From NCBI GenBank assembly GCA_037833965.1, contig AP031352.1, positions 28,708,501 through 28,772,500 of the forward strand: 64,000 nt of DNA. Reading direction: 5' to 3'. The notes under the pieces are model-generated. The model ran no database searches and was not told the DNA's origin. It saw nothing but the letters and a program-made list of their open reading frames with translations. The translations under genes were made by a program, and so were the position numbers. This document shows, piece after piece, positions 23,209 to 63,021 of the stretch. The stretch comes from Marchantia polymorpha subsp. ruderalis (taxonomy: Eukaryota; Streptophyta; Marchantiopsida; Marchantiales; Marchantiaceae). Each line of letters begins with the position of its first letter. Position 1 is the stretch's first letter.

Positions 23209-23281
23209 CGACCATGCTGGGGATCGAACCCAGAATCTCTAGCTCCGTAGGCTAGCGCCTTATCCATTGGGCCACACGGCC
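23209..23281 (-). tRNA. tRNA-Arg (anticodon ACG)
   Basis: 73-nt cloverleaf on the minus strand without an intron. The 7-bp acceptor stem is GGCCGTG with CATGGTC (two G-U pairs). The D arm is GGCCC...GGCGC, a 5-bp anticodon stem CTAGC/GCTAG encloses loop CTACGGA (anticodon ACG), and the T arm contains GGTTCGATCCC. It closely resembles angiosperm tRNA-Arg(ACG). The internal A and B boxes are intact and a T run follows, so it should be functional. A34 is expected to be deaminated to inosine to read CGU, CGC and CGA. Confidence 0.95.
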
Positions 23282-23952: not shown

Positions 23953-26900
23953 CTACGAGAAAACGGCGTGATCGTGGAATATGTTTGTTCGGGGCTGGAT
24001 GACTTTGTTTGGAAGTGCCATGTCCAGCTGCAAGTTGGCGTTTTGTTGGTCTCTCAATCGATTGTACTTGAAGAATTGATGTAACCGTTTGTGGACTTCA
24101 CCAAAGCTTCCAGTCACTTTCACCAACCTGTCTCCAATCCAGCCGGGCAACTTTGATGAAGGACCTGAAGATTCCGACGAATATCTGGCATCGACCAGCA
24201 GAATGGCAGCGTAATCCTTGATGTGTCGGATTGCCCGTCCGATGGATTGATTGACGGCCTTCATACACAAATTCTCGTAGTACTCTCTACTTTTCTTCCC
24301 ACCATGTGAACCCTGGCTGTCTGCAGATGCTAAGCTGTCGATGTATTTCATCCTCTCTACTAATTCCGGATCATTGGGACTTGGGTAAGGAAGTCCGACC
24401 ATCACGACACAACGTCCCATCCCGTCACTGAAATTGATTCCTTCGGACATTTTGCCCCCAACTACACACATCAACACAGCACCTGTTTTCTTCCCTTCCG
24501 GAGGTCTCGATATGCACTCTCTGTACTGCCTCAGAACATCTTCAAGTGCGGCTGCATCTCGAGGTTCTCGAAACAATGTTTTCTTGGCCTCGATGGCAGA
24601 AATTGTACCAGCGGACTGCCATGAATTAAAGACGTGGGCCTCATACTCAAACGACGGGAAAAACACCACAATTCCCTCAGGCACAACGGTGCATACGTTT
24701 TTCATTAGAATGCCTAGCTCTTCAACTACTGCTGGTGAGAAACGAGACTGATAGGTGAAGTCAAACGTACGGTTACTGGGCCCTTTGCCGATGGCTAGAG
24801 GAAGAATGCTCTCCGGAGGAACAATGTGACCACAACTGAATACATGCACCCGATCTTCGGGTAGATGAGGGAACAGACGGAGTCTCAGCTCTTCAACTGG
24901 CTGCAGCGTACCTCCTGCCAAAATGACCGCCCTTGCTTGCTCCAAAACCTCTGCAAAATACTTGGCAGCATTCAACATGACGAACTTGAGGGATCCACCG
25001 TCAGCGGCGTCAGACGAATGGCCTTTTGCTGGTCTTGGCATCAAAATTACTCGACCATCAGTATCAGCATTTGTAAGAGCCAATATGAATTCGGCCAGCA
25101 TGTGGAAGCCTGTCACTGAAGTCCTGGCAGACACTGCACTGGCCTTGCTTTCGGTCGATGCCTGATCTAGAAGTTTTTCTCCGTAACTGCTTACTTTGTG
25201 CACAATGTTGCTTTCTTTGATGTATCGCCGAATTTTGAACAAGTTGAGATTATCAATCCCGAGAGAAAAGACGAAGTCGTTGATGGTCATCATCCTTGCA
25301 TCTCCAGTTTCAGCTTGGGGTGTGCTGGACAGAAACCTAGTAATAGATCCAATTAGAACCAGCAGCATTTCAATGTAGCGCCTGTTACTGGCTGCCAAGC
25401 GCCTCCTAAACTTATCCAGATACTCGGAGAGCTGCGAGTTCACTTGCTTAATCTGGAGAGCAGTAACTTGGCAGCTGTGAATATCTGAAACAGTGTCCAC
25501 AAGGTTGTGGGCTTCATCAATAACCACTACGCAGTTTTTTAAGTTAATGCCAAGCGTTTCTCGAGTACCTGCATGTAGGAGAGATTGGTAAGGAAGCACT
25601 ACAAGGTCCGAAATGGGAACCATACGACGTGAGCCATAGTAAGGGCAGGTCCCAATCTTACTCCCAAGATGGAGCAAGTCTTCAATGTCAAGGGCCCCAG
25701 CCTCCAGAACTTCTTTTACATATCGTGTCTGCAGCTTCTGCTTGCTCATCATCGGACATCCTCCTTTAGTGGTGACCTTTTTCTGGCCTTTCTGGGGCAA
25801 GGAATGCAGCTTTCTACTAGAGCTTTTGCTTTGCTTCTCTTTCTGAAGTTCTAAGCATTTGTCATTGATTCTAGCCGAATTCCCCAATACCGCAACCGCT
25901 GATCCCTACCACAGTCAAATGGGCAACCGTGAATACATACATTAAACTCTGAGTACCTGAACCAGCGCGAGTCCAGACTTGAACGACCAGTTAGTTCTAA
26001 AGGATCGAACTAAATGAGTCCCGATCCAACTTCAGACGTTGAAAGCACGAATATCAGTTTCAAGGTTGACGACCCTCTAGGTCATGTAAACATACAATTC
26101 AGGAAAATGTTTGAATATTTATCTCGTTCTCTCAGATACTATATAGATCCAATACCCAAGGAAGGTCAAATCTGTGAACTTTAGGCCACTCTGCGATGGT
26201 GACGAAGGTGACGTACCAGGGTTTATGCAGAGGTTTTTACGAGAACCAAGGGAAACCGATCTCAGTGAGGATGAGAAGACGGTGCGCTGGAGCTCTCCGA
26301 CAAACTGGGAAAGTTGGGAATGTGTTCGACTACAGAAGAAAACCTTCAAAGGCTCCTCATCGTCACTGATCTCTCCACCACTGTCATCACTGCTGCTCGA
26401 GTCCACAGACGTCTGTTTCCTCTTCGCCTCCTTACAACCTTCCTCGTCACTGAAGTAGTCGTCTACAATTAAATCGTCGTCGTCATCTGGGCATGGCTTA
26501 TAGTTCAGGGGTTGATGAACTGCATCTCGGCCTTTCCTACCCTCCTTACTTGCTATCACGCTCCCAAAATGCATCACCGATCGATTTCCAGGAGTTCGAT
26601 TCAGGCTCTTTTCCGCCAATCTCGTCTTCAAAGTCCGCTTCCGGGCTTCCCTCCGCTTCTTTTCCTCCTCCTCCTTCTTTGCTTCGAAATTTGACATCCA
26701 ATCAGGTTCCTCTCCTACAGAATTGCACAGTTTTGCTACATCTCCAGCTAAATCACTGGAATCCTCGTGCTGATCAATAAGCCATTGCAACGTACTACAA
26801 ATCAAACTGAGAGTCTTCCCCGTTCCTGAATTAAATTCACGACACGGGCCTTCAGTCAAAAAATTACATTTTCTGGAAATCATGCACATCAATACCGTTT

Positions 26901-27260
26901 TTGAAGCAAGAGTGAAAACCAACGTCCTTCGAGAGTGCAATACCGTCACTGAAACGACCACCAAAACCAGGATGTATCTTTTATAACATGACAATTCAGC
27001 TCAAAGATTCGTACTTATTCCTCGCCACGTTCATCTACTTGCAGAAATTCAAAATCTCTCTCGGGTATCCGAAATGAGGCACAATCATGTCTCTGAAATA
27101 ACAAGCCGTTCATCGGGTAGGTACCTGTAGGGCTTTCAACGATCGTAACTCCGCCTTTCTGAATTCCGCTGTACACGGCTTTCATAAATTGCAACTGAAT
27201 TGGATACGGCTCGAAAGGAAACGCAGGAAATTGAACACCAGATTCCTCCGTCAGCTCCAT
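23953..27260 (-). CDS. DDX11/CHL1-type iron-sulfur DNA helicase
   Basis: Three exons on the minus strand: 27260-27125, 26825-26217 and 25898-23953, giving 896 aa (human DDX11 is about 906). Start MELTEES is the first in-frame ATG. Motifs in order: Q motif FPFEPYPIQ (14-22), Walker A SPTGTGKT (43-50), a charged insert of about 90-220 with acidic and Ser runs, motif Ia [13 protein letters not shown], four Fe-S cysteines at 245, 263, 296 and 333, DEAH box VVIDEAHN (373-380), and the C-terminal motif QSIGRAIRH. This is the XPD/FANCJ/RTEL1/DDX11 superfamily 2 class of 5'-3' helicases. The N-terminus and insert fit DDX11/CHL1, which acts in sister-chromatid cohesion and replication through structured DNA. 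No frameshift or missing core motif was noticed. Confidence 0.93.
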
Positions 27261-28392
27261 CGCAACGCCACTCCAATTTAGTTGGCACAATGCGCTACCC
27301 GACCTCGAAGCTGGAGAATGAAAATTGGCAGAGCAGGGGAGTCTCGGAGATACATGCACTCAGAAACATCCTGCTGTCTGCATCGAACACATTGTCACGA
27401 ATTGGCACAAAAACTCGCGACGGAAGACATCGGTAACAAACATAATCAGGGCTGGTGGTGCAAGCTGTAAAATCAGGGACTCAGTACTCGCTCGCGTGCG
27501 TCTCAGAATCCGTCTCCGAAAGAAATCGCGAGCTAATTCTCGCTCACGAAGCCCGGGGAAGTTGGCGGGAGCTCGAGGGGGCCAATCGAATGTTTTGAAC
27601 CACTCCACTCCATCTCCGCGCCTCTCATCACTTCACAGTACCGTCCCTAGACTACCACGTTAACCACGGCCGGCCGTATTGCTCCTAACATGGTTTCAAA
27701 AAAACCACGTAAATTATAACTACGTCCACCTTCTGTAGCCCGCGATGCTCATATTTGGTCAAGGTCGTGGCTCGTGGCAGTGTATCCCTAGACTACCACG
27801 TTAACCACGGCAGGCCGTAGTACTCCTAACAGGGATTCAAAAACCACGTAATTTACAACTACGTCTACCTTCTGTAGCCCGCGATGCTCACATTTGGTCA
27901 AGGTCGTGGCTCGTGGCAGGGTATCTCGAAACGAATCTTTCATTCTCATTCGTTCACCGGGAACCGGCTATCAGCTGTTCTCGCTTACCCGCTTACAGGT
28001 GTGATTGCTCCAATTAGTCAATGCGTGAAAGATGTTAACGAATGGATCAGCAGCTCGCGTCTGTCAGTGGCGAGATCGCCGAAGAGTTTTCGTCTTGTGG
28101 GCAATTTATTTAGTTCGAGGCAACGATTACGAAGGAAGAGGTACAACTTTTCAATTGAACCGGGTGGACATCGACAGTAGCTCCGGGTGCACGTGAGGGG
28201 TAGACGGGGATGTGACCGCCTCGGGTGAGTACATTTCTTCTACGGGTTCGTCACCTCCATAGGGCAATTCGTCGGGGTAGATGGAGTATGGCATGATGAA
28301 ACCGGCGAATACATTCGAACCTGATTTTCGTCTTGTTTTATGCGGCGCGAAACTCCGAGGTGGCAGTCGGATCGAAAATTCGGCCTCCGTTC
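27261..28392. other. Upstream region of DDX11; no secure gene
   Basis: Besides the 141-bp tandem repeat listed separately, nothing firm is seen. A minus-strand open frame at 28151-28501 begins with TTG rather than ATG. Its first in-frame ATG would give only about 46 aa (MPYSIYPDELPYGG...), and no family is recognised. It could be a small gene or an exon, but it is not called. Confidence 0.35.
27641..27922. repeat. Tandem repeat, two units of about 141 bp
   Basis: Two adjacent copies (about 27641-27780 and 27781-27922) share CCCTAGACTACCACGTTAAC near their starts and GGTCAAGGTCGTGGCTCGTG near their ends. The equivalent CCCTAG sites are 141 bp apart (27645 and 27786). They differ by scattered substitutions and small indels, so the duplication is not very recent. 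They lie about 0.4 kb upstream of the DDX11 start codon. Confidence 0.9.
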
Positions 28393-28677: not shown

Positions 28678-28750
28678 GGGGATGTAGCTCACCTGGTAGA
28701 GCGCTCGCTTCGCATGCGAGAGGTACGGAGTTCGAGTCCCCGCATCTCCA
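28678..28750 (+). tRNA. tRNA-Ala (anticodon CGC)
   Basis: 73-nt cloverleaf. The acceptor stem is GGGGATG with CATCTCC, and the D arm is GCTC...GAGC. Anticodon stem CTCGC/GCGAG encloses loop TTCGCAT (anticodon CGC). The T arm is CGGAG-TTCGAGT-CCCCG, followed by discriminator A. It is very close to angiosperm tRNA-Ala(CGC). One A-C mismatch lies in the T stem, where the usual plant sequence has GGGG. A TTTT terminator follows at 28753-28756. Confidence 0.93.
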
Positions 28751-28752
28751 CC

Positions 28753-50860: not shown

Positions 50861-51355
50861 ATGAATTGTGCTCTCGGATTATAAAATTAAGAATACCAAA
50901 AAGATGTTTCATTCTGATTTATCTCAATAAACGTTGTGACGATGAAAACAAAAAGTATATCAAAACAAGTGGTTTTTCCTACCGTCGTATATGCAATTGC
51001 CCACTTTGCAGTAAAATAAATTCGTTTGTACAGTATCATCACTATTTCAAATACTGTAATTGTAAAAATAAATACTTTATCATATTATACAATTTGTATG
51101 ATATGTATTTCCAAAACTGCAGCACCACCGCAGTTCGCGAATATGTTTCGGCAACCGAAGTAAGCACAGTTGAGCTCAAGGGAACTCTTGCAGTTCACTG
51201 TGCCGTGTCTCCGGGATCAAACCCTAACTCGTCACGCATGAACCCTAAATATCGATATTCTACGCAGAAGACGATCTCTCTCGAATTCGCATTCCCGGGA
51301 TTCGTGTACGCTCTCGTAACTACCTCTGCTCTTCTCGCACCCCCGTCTCGAAACC
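50861..51355 (+). promoter_or_regulatory. eS30 promoter and 5' leader
   Basis: Composition changes from AT-rich to mixed as the gene is approached. Two telo-box-type motifs lie at 51219-51227 (AAACCCTAA) and 51241-51249 (AACCCTAAA), 100-140 bp before the start codon. The leader just upstream is pyrimidine-rich (CTCTGCTCTTCTCGCACCCC). Telo-boxes are an established feature of plant ribosomal-protein promoters. Confidence 0.75.
51219..51227 (+). promoter_or_regulatory. Telo-box (AAACCCTAA)
   Basis: Exact match to the plant interstitial telomere motif that is typical of promoters of translation-machinery genes. A second, offset copy lies at 51241-51249. Confidence 0.75.
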
Positions 51356-51860
51356 ATGAGTAAGTTTCGCTTAATCTGCTCGTAGAATCTCAAATTTTGC
51401 TTTCGTAGAATCCATTTCTCGAACCACCCTGTGAAATTCTTCCCGGTATGTTTTGGGATTTTAGTGGGAAAGTGGGACGATTTTCGGCATAAGCCAAAGA
51501 GTATGAATGCTTCGTAGTCGGACTCCTCTCATTCGTGACCTTGTCTAAATTGCGCAGGTAAGGTCCACGGATCCCTCGCCCGTGCGGGGAAGGTCAGAGG
51601 GCAAACCCCGAAAGTGCAAAAGCAGGATAAGAAGAAGCAGCCTAAGGGCCGTGCTCACAAACGTATCCAGTACAACCGCAGATTCGTCACTGCTGGTGAG
51701 TTACAGTTCTTGCTGTCAAATGCTTATGAATGTGTTATTTCTGAATATCCCGTCCAGTGGTTTCCTTTCTCCCGTGTCTCGAAATTGACTCCAGCTTCGT
51801 TCCCTACTTGCAGTTGTTGGCTTCGGCAAGAAGCGTGGTCCCAACTCTTCCGAGAAGTAG
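51356..51860 (+). CDS. RPS30: 40S ribosomal protein eS30
   Basis: Three coding exons, 51356-51359, 51558-51695 and 51814-51860, give 62 aa, the usual length of plant eS30. Exon 1 contributes only ATG plus one base, and the donor overlaps it (ATGA|GTAAGT). Joined to exon 2 it reads [20 protein letters not shown]. The rest contains the conserved [17 protein letters not shown] and ends [14 protein letters not shown]. The protein is highly basic and sits in the small ribosomal subunit. As in other plants there is no N-terminal ubiquitin-like fusion (animals encode eS30 as a FUBI fusion). Arabidopsis has G at residue 2 where this gene has S. The four snoRNAs downstream probably share its transcript. 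Confidence 0.96.
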
Positions 51861-52323
51861 ATGACCTTTTTTCGTGTGGAGGTCTGCGAATCCCGCTGCA
51901 TCTGGCCTGGGATGGCGATGTGCCTTCAAAGCTCCTGGGCCTCAACTCGCCTTATCGAGAAACTGCTGCAAAGCAGTCGATGTAAGTGCCTCCTTCAATC
52001 GACCATGTGACTTCTCCTACCTAGCAGATAGGTTTTAAAGAAGAGGTAAAATACTGGCCTTGCGTCGGACGCATCGGCTTCGTATCCTTCACGTTATTAA
52101 CCGAACGTTTAACTGGCCTCCGACCTCACTTAGTATTTCTGTTACTATGTGATGCAACTGCCATCTGTCTAGCGGGAAGTCTTTACTTTCCAGCCTGTAG
52201 TCGTAACATGTAGATGTGAACAAAGGAATATAGTTGTCGAGGTAGGTAATGTGTAATGTGTGTAGAACCTTTATGATATTTAAATGCACCTCACTACGCA
52301 CAGCCACACCATATTCAAGGGAT

Positions 52324-52396
52324 GCCAAACGATGATCAACTCATAGACCTGTTCTGAATCCTAATGTGGAATCAACATGCACTACCAACTGATGGC
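52324..52396 (+). ncRNA. Box C/D snoRNA, copy 1 (18S rRNA 2'-O-methylation guide)
   Basis: 73-nt unit with terminal stem GCCA...TGGC. It has box C ATGATCA (one change from RTGATGA), box D' CTGA, box C'-like ATGTGGA and box D CTGA next to the closing stem. The sequence before D' (CATAGACCTGTT) can pair along 12 nt, with one G-U, to AACAGGTCTGTG of 18S rRNA. By the D+5 rule it would methylate the G of AACAG. In human that residue is G1490 (SNORD25) and in yeast it is the snR56 site. No target was found for the guide before box D. Confidence 0.85.
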
Positions 52397-52452
52397 ACCC
52401 CGAGGATCGTTTAGTGTTCACTTCATGTTTCTATTTGTCTCACTCTGGAGAA

Positions 52453-52525
52453 GCCATACGATGATCAATACATAGACCTGTTCTGAATCCTAATGTGGAA
52501 TCAACATGCACTACCAACTGATGGC
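52453..52525 (+). ncRNA. Box C/D snoRNA, copy 2
   Basis: Same 73-nt structure as copy 1, differing at two positions near the 5' end (GCCATACG and CAATACAT). Guide and boxes D', C' and D are unchanged. Confidence 0.85.
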
Positions 52526-52581
52526 ATCTCGAAGATTGTGTAGTGTTCTCTTCATGTCTCGGTTCGTCTCACTCCGGTTAA

Positions 52582-52654
52582 GCCATACGATGATCAACAC
52601 ATAGACCTGTTCTGAATCCTAATGTGGAATCAACATGCACTACCAACTGATGGC
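52582..52654 (+). ncRNA. Box C/D snoRNA, copy 3
   Basis: Same 73-nt structure, with GCCATACG at the 5' end and CAACACAT before the guide. All boxes and the D' guide are conserved. Confidence 0.85.
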
Positions 52655-52708
52655 ATTTCGGAGAGTACCCGGTGTTAATTGTGTCTCTGTCTGTCTCATT
52701 CGGCACCA

Positions 52709-52781
52709 GCCAAACGATGATCAACTCATAGACCTGTTCTGAATCCTAATGTGGAATCAACATGCACTACCAACTGATGGC
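52709..52781 (+). ncRNA. Box C/D snoRNA, copy 4
   Basis: Identical in its core to copy 1 (GCCAAACGATGATCAACTCA...). Spacing from copy 3 (127 bp start to start) is like the other pairs (129 bp each), so the cluster arose by tandem duplication. Spacers have diverged much more than the snoRNA bodies. Confidence 0.85.
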
Positions 52782-53463
52782 TTGGTGTCTTGCTGCTGTG
52801 TCGAGTGTAGTATGACTGTAATTGTAAGTTACTGGTTTAGTCAGCCATCTACGTCTCTTTACAAACAGCGAAGTAGTTCAGAGGTATGGTCTCTAGACCT
52901 GGTTTGGGCGAGGATCTCTTAAGACTCACTATAATTAGTGTTTGGTGGAGTAAACTGTTCCTTGTGTTAGCTGGTTTTCACGAACAAGCGAGTACCGCCT
53001 TCTTTCTGTAGGGAGTTCAATGCTTGGAACTTCGGTTTCAAGTTATGTAACTTTCTTCAGGAGGTGGTCCAGATCAACCTCGAGATATCGTTTCTGTGCT
53101 CAAGGCCTGAAAGCCGGATGAGTGACTGATTGTTGCTCGAGAACAGTAGACATTAGTCGAAATATGACTGGTATCGCATATGTGGCTGTGTAAAAAACTC
53201 ATGAATACACTCCTCGATTTTGCAGGAACTTGTTGACGAGGGGAGCTGGAGCCATGTCGCTGTTGTTTTCCGGGCTGCTTGATATGGCTTTGTACTCTCC
53301 ATTAATTAATTTCAGGCTTTGAGAAATCCTTTCGGCGTAGTCACCGGCCCCTATCCCACAGTGATGAGAATTCTGAGTCTATTGCCCAAAGTTCTTTCCA
53401 ACTGTTCATGGTACAAATCCACGTCTTAATGTGACCGCACCACTCTTGAACTTTTCATTTTCG

Positions 53464-53469
53464 AATAAA
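53464..53469 (+). promoter_or_regulatory. Candidate poly(A) signal of the eS30/snoRNA host transcript
   Basis: AATAAA shortly before the composition change at about 53.5 kb. It fits as the end of the snoRNA host transcript. Confidence 0.45.
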
Positions 53470-53480
53470 CATCTATTGAG

Positions 53481-55202
53481 CGCCAGATTTGGATGTTTTC
53501 ATTCAACATTTATGTACTAAATGCCCCAGACCAGCTTTATGTAGTTCGGGATGATTTAAGATCAGGTTCGCATACAAGATTATCTGCTTCATTGGCGCAC
53601 GAAGCCCCTCAAGAACTTGTAGTACCTTCACTGACCAGCTTTTTGTAGGTCGGAATGATTTAAAATCTGGTTCGCATACAAGATTATTTGCTTCATTGCC
53701 GCACGAAGGCCCTCGAGAACTTTTAATACACTGCCAATCGTGCAAACGATGTTGAATCTTCTAAAGAAACATTAACTTCATCTCATTTTACGACGAAGTT
53801 ACGATGTAGAAAAAGTATGCGATATCGATCCGTATGTGTATATAGCAAAATTCAAGATGAATAGAGCACGAAAAGGAAGTTTTGTTTCCTCTTATCAGAG
53901 TGGAAAAATTATCTTCGAAGAAGAGGGAAAAAAGAAGCGGTGAACAGACGGAAAAAGAAAAATTAATAATTGCTTAAGAGCACAAAGTGAATTATGAAGA
54001 AAATACTTGTCCATGTGCAATCCTCTTTATCGTACACATTACCACATCTATGACAGGTACAATATCATTGTCGCCTGAATGCAACATACGATTCTCTAGT
54101 ACAATGGACTGTACATTGCAGCGGCAAAGGAAAGAGTAAGCAGCTATCATGATGAAAAACTAAACAATATTCTGACATACTACAATGTATATAACTATTA
54201 CTAAAGAAATAATCTGTGACGATCTGCAGTTACATAGAATGTGCACTTAAATTGAAAAAGAGCGCATACCAAAATTGAAAAAGAGCTCGTAGCCACCGGA
54301 GCGCAGCTAGATGTTGCTCCATATATTCTTATTGCCCACTACTCTCACAGTTGGGATGCGTAAACGATTGTAAAAAAACTTCACTATTCAAATATACAAT
54401 ATTTTTGAAAGTATTATGTGTGCCGACAGATAGAATGCACAATCTTTGCTACAACGATGTCATTAGAATTTGCTCGGTTTGATCAGACTTTCCTCTCTGC
54501 AGAAGCTACATTTGCAATGTCACTGTCTTCCTATTCCCCCTTCCTCTCCCTTCCTCATCTACTTCTGTTTTGACTGCGTCATACACATCACGGAAAATCG
54601 TACACATCATAGAAATCGTATACGGGTGTGAGAATTAGTACGGCTGTGGGGTAGAAGATTGCTGGCTTACAGATCTGTATGTACACTACTACCCATTATA
54701 ATATCGGCGGACATTTCCTCGAAGTTTCTCACCGTGTTGGCCCGATACAACGGAAAGGAGCTTTCATTGCTGGTGATCGGAATGAACGCTCCAGGACCAC
54801 TTCCAAAGTAGGTTTCCGAACAAAAACACATCCATCACAGATACAGGTGACAAATAGGTGGGTATACGAATTTCATATTTTAAGGTGCACTAAATCCAGA
54901 AAACGCATGAGTGAAGAGAGATCAGAAGTAAAGAATGTCCAACGAAGACCAGATGCAATCGGAAGTCAAATCTGTAATTGGGTGGAACATCAAATACAGT
55001 ACAGTACACGAGTTACACCCATCTTGTGAAGGCGAGATAGGGGCAAGTAGAAATGCACTACATTTCTACAAAATTATGTTTGACTAAAATAATGGAGTGC
55101 ATTAGAATGCGTGGGTCCTAAAGAGGTTATTCAATTTTGTATTTGTGACCTACGGTAGCTAACTTGTTTTCTTCCTCTTCATCTGTTTCATGAAGATGAA
55201 TC
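53481..55202. other. Intergenic DNA between the eS30 locus and the RAF2-like gene
   Basis: Holds a 104-bp tandem duplication (53529-53736), a short duplicated segment AATTGAAAAAGAGC near 54250-54285, and no supported gene. The open frame at 54679-55029 (+) has no recognisable domain. Confidence 0.4.
53529..53736. repeat. Tandem repeat, two units of about 104 bp
   Basis: Copies start GACCAGCTTT at 53529 and 53633 and share ATGATTTAA, GGTTCGCATACAAGATTAT, GCTTCATTG and GCACGAAG. It lies just after the presumed end of the snoRNA host transcript. No clear box C/D or H/ACA structure could be assigned. Confidence 0.85.
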
Positions 55203-62677: not shown

Positions 62678-63021
62678 AAGGTTTTTTGCCTTTATTATAT
62701 AAATAAAAATTTCAATTTATATGACTGAAATAACATACATCTACAAATCGGCTTTCAAAATAGTGATAAGGTTATTTTATATAAACTATCAAACAAAATA
62801 TTTTAATTACATATGAATATAAAAATATAATTGATTATCTTTTTAAGGTTTTTTGCCTTTATTATATAAATAAAAATTTCAATTTATATGACTGAAATAA
62901 CATACATCTACAAATCGGCTTTCAAAATAGTGATAAGGTTTTTTTATATAAACTATCAAACAAAATATTTTAATTACATATGAATTTAAAAATATAATTG
63001 ATTATCTTTTTAAGGTTTTTG
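62678..63021. repeat. Tandem duplication of a 167-bp unit
   Basis: AAGGTTTTTTGCC starts at 62678 and again at 62845. The two full units are nearly identical; single-base differences are visible near GATAAGGTTA/T and GAATA/TTAAAAA. A truncated third start, AAGGTTTTTGATT, follows at 63012, so the period is 167 bp twice. Confidence 0.93.

Follow-up and report, generated by a model that had tools for sequence, protein, structure and literature searches.

Candidate double-guide box C/D snoRNAs in a four-copy array beside an eS30 gene of Marchantia polymorpha

Introduction

Methylation sites in ribosomal RNA (rRNA) are deeply conserved, while their guides move between RNAs. Two such sites in 18S rRNA are a uridine, methylated at position 1273 in Arabidopsis, 1326 in human, 1269 in yeast, and, as a prediction, 1240 in O. 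tauri, and a guanosine at the corresponding positions 1434, 1490, 1428, and (again predicted) 1398 (Table 2 of PMC11542601). The present analysis concerns an array of four 73-nucleotide (nt) repeats, predicted to be box C/D small nucleolar RNAs (snoRNAs), next to a gene for ribosomal protein eS30 in Marchantia polymorpha subsp. ruderalis. The array lies on the + strand of a 64,000-nt stretch of contig AP031352.1 (positions 28,708,501–28,772,500; referred to as the window), and each repeat appears to carry guides for both sites.

In Arabidopsis, U33 and SnoR34 are listed for U1273, and SnoR19 for both G1434 and U1448 (Table 1 of PMC8053127). The tables of PMC3511168 and PMC8817022 assign the two sites to separate snoRNAs in yeast and human, whose guide partners were taken here from such listings and not from sequences. 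Separate RNAs are likewise given for Neurospora (CD34 versus CD19 and CD41; PMC2780460), Dictyostelium (CD29 versus CD1; PMC8817022), and P. falciparum (PFS1 versus PFS10, listed as homologues; PMC2656528). In these sources, the guides thus reside on separate snoRNAs in all six organisms for which both sites are listed; for Entamoeba and the Guillardia nucleomorph, the G site only is shown.

Merging of guides between species is already known from chicken GGgCD18, described as a "recombination of guiding function," in which two guides combined on a single RNA in one species are carried by different RNAs in another (PMC2653536). That case involves other sites and another lineage, and neither a four-copy array nor a guide-less donor RNA is mentioned in the accessible part of the report (PMC2653536). 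In a literature search whose coverage stopped short of subscription papers, supplements, and snoRNA databases, no report of the present guide pair in one RNA was found, and no liverwort or moss snoRNA survey.

The array is best explained, with a probability that we put at roughly 0.8, by a model in which each unit would be a 73-nt double-guide box C/D snoRNA, a new pairing of two ancient guides that was amplified in tandem and has the eS30 transcript as its probable carrier. The GCCA/TGGC stem and boxes C and D would form a kink-turn for the C/D core proteins. The guide before box D′ would direct fibrillarin to the 18S G that corresponds to human G1490 and Arabidopsis G1434, and the guide before box D would direct it to the 18S U that corresponds to human U1326 and Arabidopsis U1273. 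A single eS30 primary transcript would release all four copies, most likely out of an intron in its 3′ untranslated region (UTR), raising guide dosage. Transcription, splicing, processing, and methylation, as well as the direction of evolutionary change, are what we infer from the sequence features described below.

Results and Discussion

Organization of the Array

Units 1 to 4 (52324–52396, 52453–52525, 52582–52654, and 52709–52781) fill the interval 52324–52781 exactly and are separated by spacers of 56, 56, and 54 nt; unit 4 has the same sequence as unit 1. TRF detects the array with a period of 129, 3.6 copies, and a score of 664, and a search of the organism's own genome (241,466,482 bases in nine contigs), in which repeat counts are lower bounds, returned at least four copies, all in the array and none elsewhere. 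Across the units, 70 of 73 columns are invariant (pairwise identity of the bodies, 96%–100%), and variation is confined to columns 5, 17, and 18, which lie outside the boxes, the 12-nt guide before box D′, and the 14 nt before box D. Pairwise identity of the spacers amounts to 43/56, 35/60, and 36/60 aligned positions (58%–77%). Shuffled spacers (300 per pair) average about 0.50 identity with a maximum of about 0.6, and the two lower values fall at the top of that range. When units 1 and 2 (70/73) are set against spacers 1 and 2 (43/56), the difference is significant (Fisher p = 0.002). An initial annotation of the window had described four tandem copies of 73 nt, a strictly conserved 12-nt guide before D′ (CATAGACCTGTT, identical in 4/4 units), and spacers evolving faster than the bodies, all of which is borne out at these coordinates.

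From 5′ to 3′, every unit consists of GCCA, a single base, box C (ACGATGA), a brief linker, CATAGACCTGTT, box D′ (CTGA), a short loop, box C′ (ATGTGGA), ACATGCACTACCAA, box D (CTGA), and TGGC. The GCCA/TGGC ends and the CTGA at both D′ and D are present in every unit (in unit 1, box D′ occupies 52354–52357 and box D 52389–52392), and box D′ matches its consensus perfectly. Order and spacing of the elements look like those of a box C/D snoRNA, the anatomy that had been assigned initially and that the terminal stem, boxes D and D′, and this spacing support.

Two Predicted Guides and Their 18S rRNA Targets

Pairing was scanned against a 1,539-nt 18S-like sequence of the same genome, requiring at least 9 base pairs (bp), no more than one G–U pair, and a start within 3 nt of the box. 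Each of the two guides of unit 1 has exactly one match of at least 9 bp on this sequence, in the +5 register, and both guides in 4/4 units place the +5 position on a residue that is methylated in homologues.

The guide before box D′ (52342–52353 in unit 1 and the equivalent positions of units 2 to 4) pairs with 18S AACAGGTCTGTG(A) directly adjoining the box, over 13 bp in units 1 and 4 and 12 bp in units 2 and 3, including one G–U pair, and its +5 residue is a G. Judged by this pairing, the proposed target, the 18S counterpart of human Gm1490, yeast Gm1428, and Arabidopsis Gm1434, holds, as does the earlier assignment of the guide to the SNORD25/snR56 site. When the guide was shuffled, 12 bp anywhere on the 18S-like sequence were reached in 3 of 2,000 trials and 10 bp in 59 of 2,000.

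The initial annotation named this D′ target alone and overlooked a second, equally strong guide at box D. This guide, ACATGCACTACCAA (52375–52388 in unit 1, likewise at equivalent positions of units 2 to 4), is invariant in 4/4 units and pairs with 18S TGGTGGTGCATG over 12 bp, including one G–U pair and leaving the base adjoining box D unpaired; its +5 residue is a U. The target would be the site of human SNORD33, yeast snR55, and Arabidopsis U33/snoR34 (1326, 1269, and 1273, respectively). Shuffled D guides attained 12 bp in 8 of 2,000 trials and 10 bp in 55 of 2,000, again anywhere on the 18S-like sequence.

Comparison with Rfam families places the stronger family signal on the D side. At a permissive threshold, SNORD33 (RF00133), the family to which a table in PMC3511168 assigns AtsnoR34, is the top match in 4/4 units, with 33.4, 33.0, 31.9, and 32.6 bits for units 1 to 4 against a cut-off of 44 (E = 0.0015–0.0036). 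It is followed by SNORD98 (26.4–26.9 bits versus 50) and snR56 (RF01188; 24.1–25.5 bits versus 54). Over CAUGCACUACCA, the D guide of the SNORD33 consensus matches the units at every letter. Since the stretch that aligns with SNORD33 is the D guide, a double guide is the preferred reading of the RNA. SNORD25 (RF00054) is not among the permissive matches at the units; it shares a clan with snR56, and an overlapping match with a lower score may have been filtered out, as the permissive table omits lower-scoring members of the same clan. A search of the organism's own genome with RF00133 returned nothing, not even the units of the window, and is uninformative because none of 14 control genomes gave a match either.

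The units therefore resemble two known kinds of guide RNA without coinciding with either. Like SNORD33 and U33/snoR34, they address the same 18S U through the D guide, but their D′ half is unlike the SNORD33 consensus, and Arabidopsis U33 and SnoR34 have 25S G3292 and G2918 as further listed targets (Table 1 of PMC8053127). Like SNORD25, SnoR19, and yeast snR56, they carry a guide for the same 18S G, but the second guide of SnoR19 and the RF00054 consensus, for U1448, is absent from the units, whose D guide has the U1273-type site as its sole 18S match of at least 9 bp. A SNORD25-type RNA in which the D′ guide alone works, the D-side complementarity being incidental, would fit the 12–13 bp that D′ forms directly beside its box. 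We consider this highly improbable in view of a D guide that pairs over 12 bp in exact register, does not vary among the units, is the very part matching SNORD33, and is so seldom equaled by shuffled guides.

Several points weigh against reading each unit as a double-guide snoRNA. At gathering thresholds, Rfam finds no snoRNA in the window, two tRNAs being its only matches; the covariance-model comparison envisaged initially identified SNORD33 as the best family in all units, yet left every unit below the gathering score. The boxes C, D′, C′, and D had been placed correctly in all units, whereas C and C′ had been called generously: box C deviates in 4/4 units by one mismatch from RTGATGA (RUGAUGA), at the consensus U that we take to be the nucleotide gripped by the 15.5K/Snu13 protein, and C′ is degenerate, with two mismatches by eye. 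The 18S reference is a degenerate partial copy, and the targets were read from it and checked against the Rfam eukaryotic consensus. Finally, conservation was judged among paralogous units only, and local gene conversion could likewise keep the bodies alike.

On the last point, an array of functionless or silent repeats homogenized by conversion would explain why bodies inside one array are nearly identical. It would not explain why none of the three variable columns falls in a box or in either guide, and the spacers have diverged so far that the array is not recent; we regard this explanation as scarcely credible. As to the reference, the Rfam eukaryotic 18S consensus has the same letters at both target sites, two of them in lower case. 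On the copy, the G site and the U1448-type site are 14 nt apart, agreeing with Arabidopsis numbering, and the two target residues are 162 nt apart compared with 161 (1434 minus 1273), the extra nucleotide being compatible with a degenerate copy. A degenerate partial 18S copy lies at C3:16632600-16642500, on the same contig as the window. An intact 18S was not found when a 443-nt piece was searched against the genome: one of the six matches was the piece itself, and the rest were 81%–93% identical or partial.

Other Candidate Guides in the Genome

The genome was searched for further guides to either site with exact patterns, which guides with mismatches or other G–U pairs would escape. The AGACCTGTT-type D′ pattern has 18 matches (35 for the reversed-pattern control), four of them in the array, and a one-mismatch box-C-like word lies within 75 nt upstream in 3 of the 14 others (L008, L019, and L020). 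The closest candidate for an alternative G1434 guide, L019, has its box-C-like word 25 nt upstream and a CTGA 52 nt downstream; by eye, it lacks a stem adjoining the boxes, its register is shifted by one nucleotide, and it was rejected. So were L008, with the box-C-like word 48 nt upstream, and L020, with no CTGA within 60 nt downstream. A D′ pattern boxed by ATGA gave 13 matches (control, 18), three with a box-C-like word no more than 40 nt upstream, and none of these three with a CTGA within 60 nt downstream. For the D guide followed by CTGA, five of nine matches lie outside the array and lack a box C (control, 4); with other boxes, there are 10 matches (control, 10), of which two have a box-C-like word but stems of 1–2 bp. 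Under these exact patterns, no convincing C/D RNA was found among the 14 + 13 D′-type and 5 + 10 D-type matches outside the array.

RNAs resembling SNORD25 and SnoR19 do occur in this genome. A pattern for the U1448 guide matches eight places (reversed control, 2), three of them with snoRNA boxes: one on contig C2 (C2:27874174-27874258; L038 1437–1521), which scores 35.7 bits against a SNORD25 cut-off of 39 (E = 7e-5), and two on contig C5, 2.5 kilobases apart, near 29176669 (L042) and 29179134 (L043), at about 1438–1521 each. All have internal CTGA words and boxes C and D, box C being perfect in the C2 copy and off by one mismatch in both C5 copies. The C2 copy closes with a 10-bp stem; the computed stem search demanded a perfect box C and so left out the C5 copies, whose stems were recognized by eye and from the Rfam alignment. 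As in SnoR19, the RF00054 consensus places ACAGAccUGU ahead of D′ and GAAcAUcUAAGGGA ahead of D. In the Marchantia copies, the U1448 guide is present with 15 bp (computed for L038 and L042; L043 was compared with L042 by eye). The G1434 guide is absent; no internal CTGA in L038 or L042 is preceded by a match to the G1434 residue, and the matches that these words do give are weak and fall at other positions. Their classification has a weak side, which counts against the comparison: L043 reaches 22.7 bits for SNORD25 (E = 0.28), and neither C5 copy is listed at E 0.05. The RF00054 search of the genome gave one match, below the cut-off, with no matches in the control genomes.

The SNORD25-like copies lack a G1434 guide, and the exact-pattern search turned up no convincing alternative, which suggests that the G1434 guide is present only in the eS30-linked array. 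The array had initially been called the plant guide for the G site, a description that calls for correction: the Arabidopsis guide is SnoR19, which also serves U1448, and SnoR19/SNORD25-like RNAs here occupy separate loci and lack the G1434 guide. A homologue of SNORD33/U33 whose D′ half is decaying, with only the D guide at work and G1434 served by a diverged RNA elsewhere, would agree with the degenerate C′ and with the blind spots of exact patterns. It is very unlikely, given that none of the 4 units deviates in the D′ guide or in box D′ while the adjoining columns 17 and 18 vary, and given the SNORD25-like RNAs without a G1434 guide.

For the double-guide units, the history suggested by these comparisons is that the G1434 guide came to reside on an RNA with a SNORD33/U33-type D guide, while SNORD25/snoR19-like RNAs kept the U1448 guide only. 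The full claim, to which we give even odds, is that the guide changed carriers: the G1490/G1434 methylation would here have as its sole guide a SNORD33-type RNA, which serves 1326/1273 as well, the old carrier would keep its other guide only, and methylation of both sites would depend on a single four-copy locus and on how much transcript one eS30 paralogue yields. Both ends of a guide move may then be readable in one genome, as an RNA with the guide and an RNA without it. If the array is the sole guide, its loss would remove two widely conserved 18S methylations together.

The eS30 Gene and Expression of the Array

The adjoining eS30 gene, also noted initially, is confirmed directly upstream on the + strand (51356–51860; exons 51356–51359, 51558–51695, and 51814–51860; Pfam Ribosomal_S30, E = 1.3e-30). 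Its reading frame is complete (MSKVHGS...SSEK), with a stop at 51860, and the first snoRNA unit begins 463 nt past the stop codon. The best PDB matches of the protein include entries that we take to be plant ribosomes. Two telo-box motifs, which are tied to plant ribosomal-protein promoters, lie upstream of the gene (51219–51248, + strand; AAACCCTAA at 51219 and AACCCTAA at 51241). The eS30 protein, these motifs, and the snoR19-type RNAs all point to a land plant.

The array is probably carried in a 3′-UTR intron of this eS30 paralogue, proposed at 51982–53225 on the + strand. The intron would begin with a GTAAGT at 51982, 121 nt past the stop codon and one of 11 on this strand of the window (a further one, at 52824, lies beyond the array), and acceptor-like words end at 53011, 53060, and 53225. 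An AATAAA at 53464–53469 (+ strand) might serve the host transcript as its poly(A) signal. The A+T content climbs from 0.45 upstream of 51982 to 0.57 downstream, compared with 0.57 and 0.56 in the two eS30 coding introns. Hosting is disfavored by an A+T content of 0.56 past the last acceptor-like word, no lower than in the proposed intron, and by the lack of a CTRAY branch-point word in the 60 nt before each of the three acceptor-like words. In some sponges, an intron of eS30 (FAU) carries the unrelated H/ACA snoRNA SNORA62 (PMC4515611). A 104-bp direct repeat (1.9 copies, 53529–53729) lies directly past the proposed host transcript.

Alternatively, the array may be an independent polycistronic snoRNA gene 3′ of eS30 with its own promoter, an arrangement that would bear on expression only, is compatible with the double guide, and seems to us possible though rather unlikely. 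A second eS30 gene on contig C9 (C9:11722306-11722443; L048) has, by eye, the same intron positions and no snoRNA cluster downstream, which, like the weak splice signals without a CTRAY word, would suit a separate gene. A site II word (TGGGCY), a motif with a promoter role, is found at 51936, but such words are common in the window (21 on the + and 29 on the − strand), and no telo-box occurs from the eS30 stop to the array, the only two of the window being those upstream of eS30. Polycistronic clusters are standard in plants, where few snoRNAs are intronic (PMC5122169); at this locus, however, the GTAAGT shortly past the stop codon coincides with a rise in A+T content to the level of the eS30 introns. 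Should the array be the sole guide, its loss would also reveal whether guide dosage is set by linkage to a ribosomal-protein transcript.

Other Features of the Window

Open reading frames with DEAD_2 and Helicase_C_2 domains occupy 23953–26994 on the − strand and presumably belong to a RAD3/XPD-type DNA helicase gene. The window also holds a tRNA-Arg(acg) at 23209–23281 (− strand), a tRNA-Ala(cgc) at 28678–28752 (+ strand), and two-copy tandem repeats of 167 bp (98% matches) at 62678–63020 and of 139 bp (91%) at 27644–27925.
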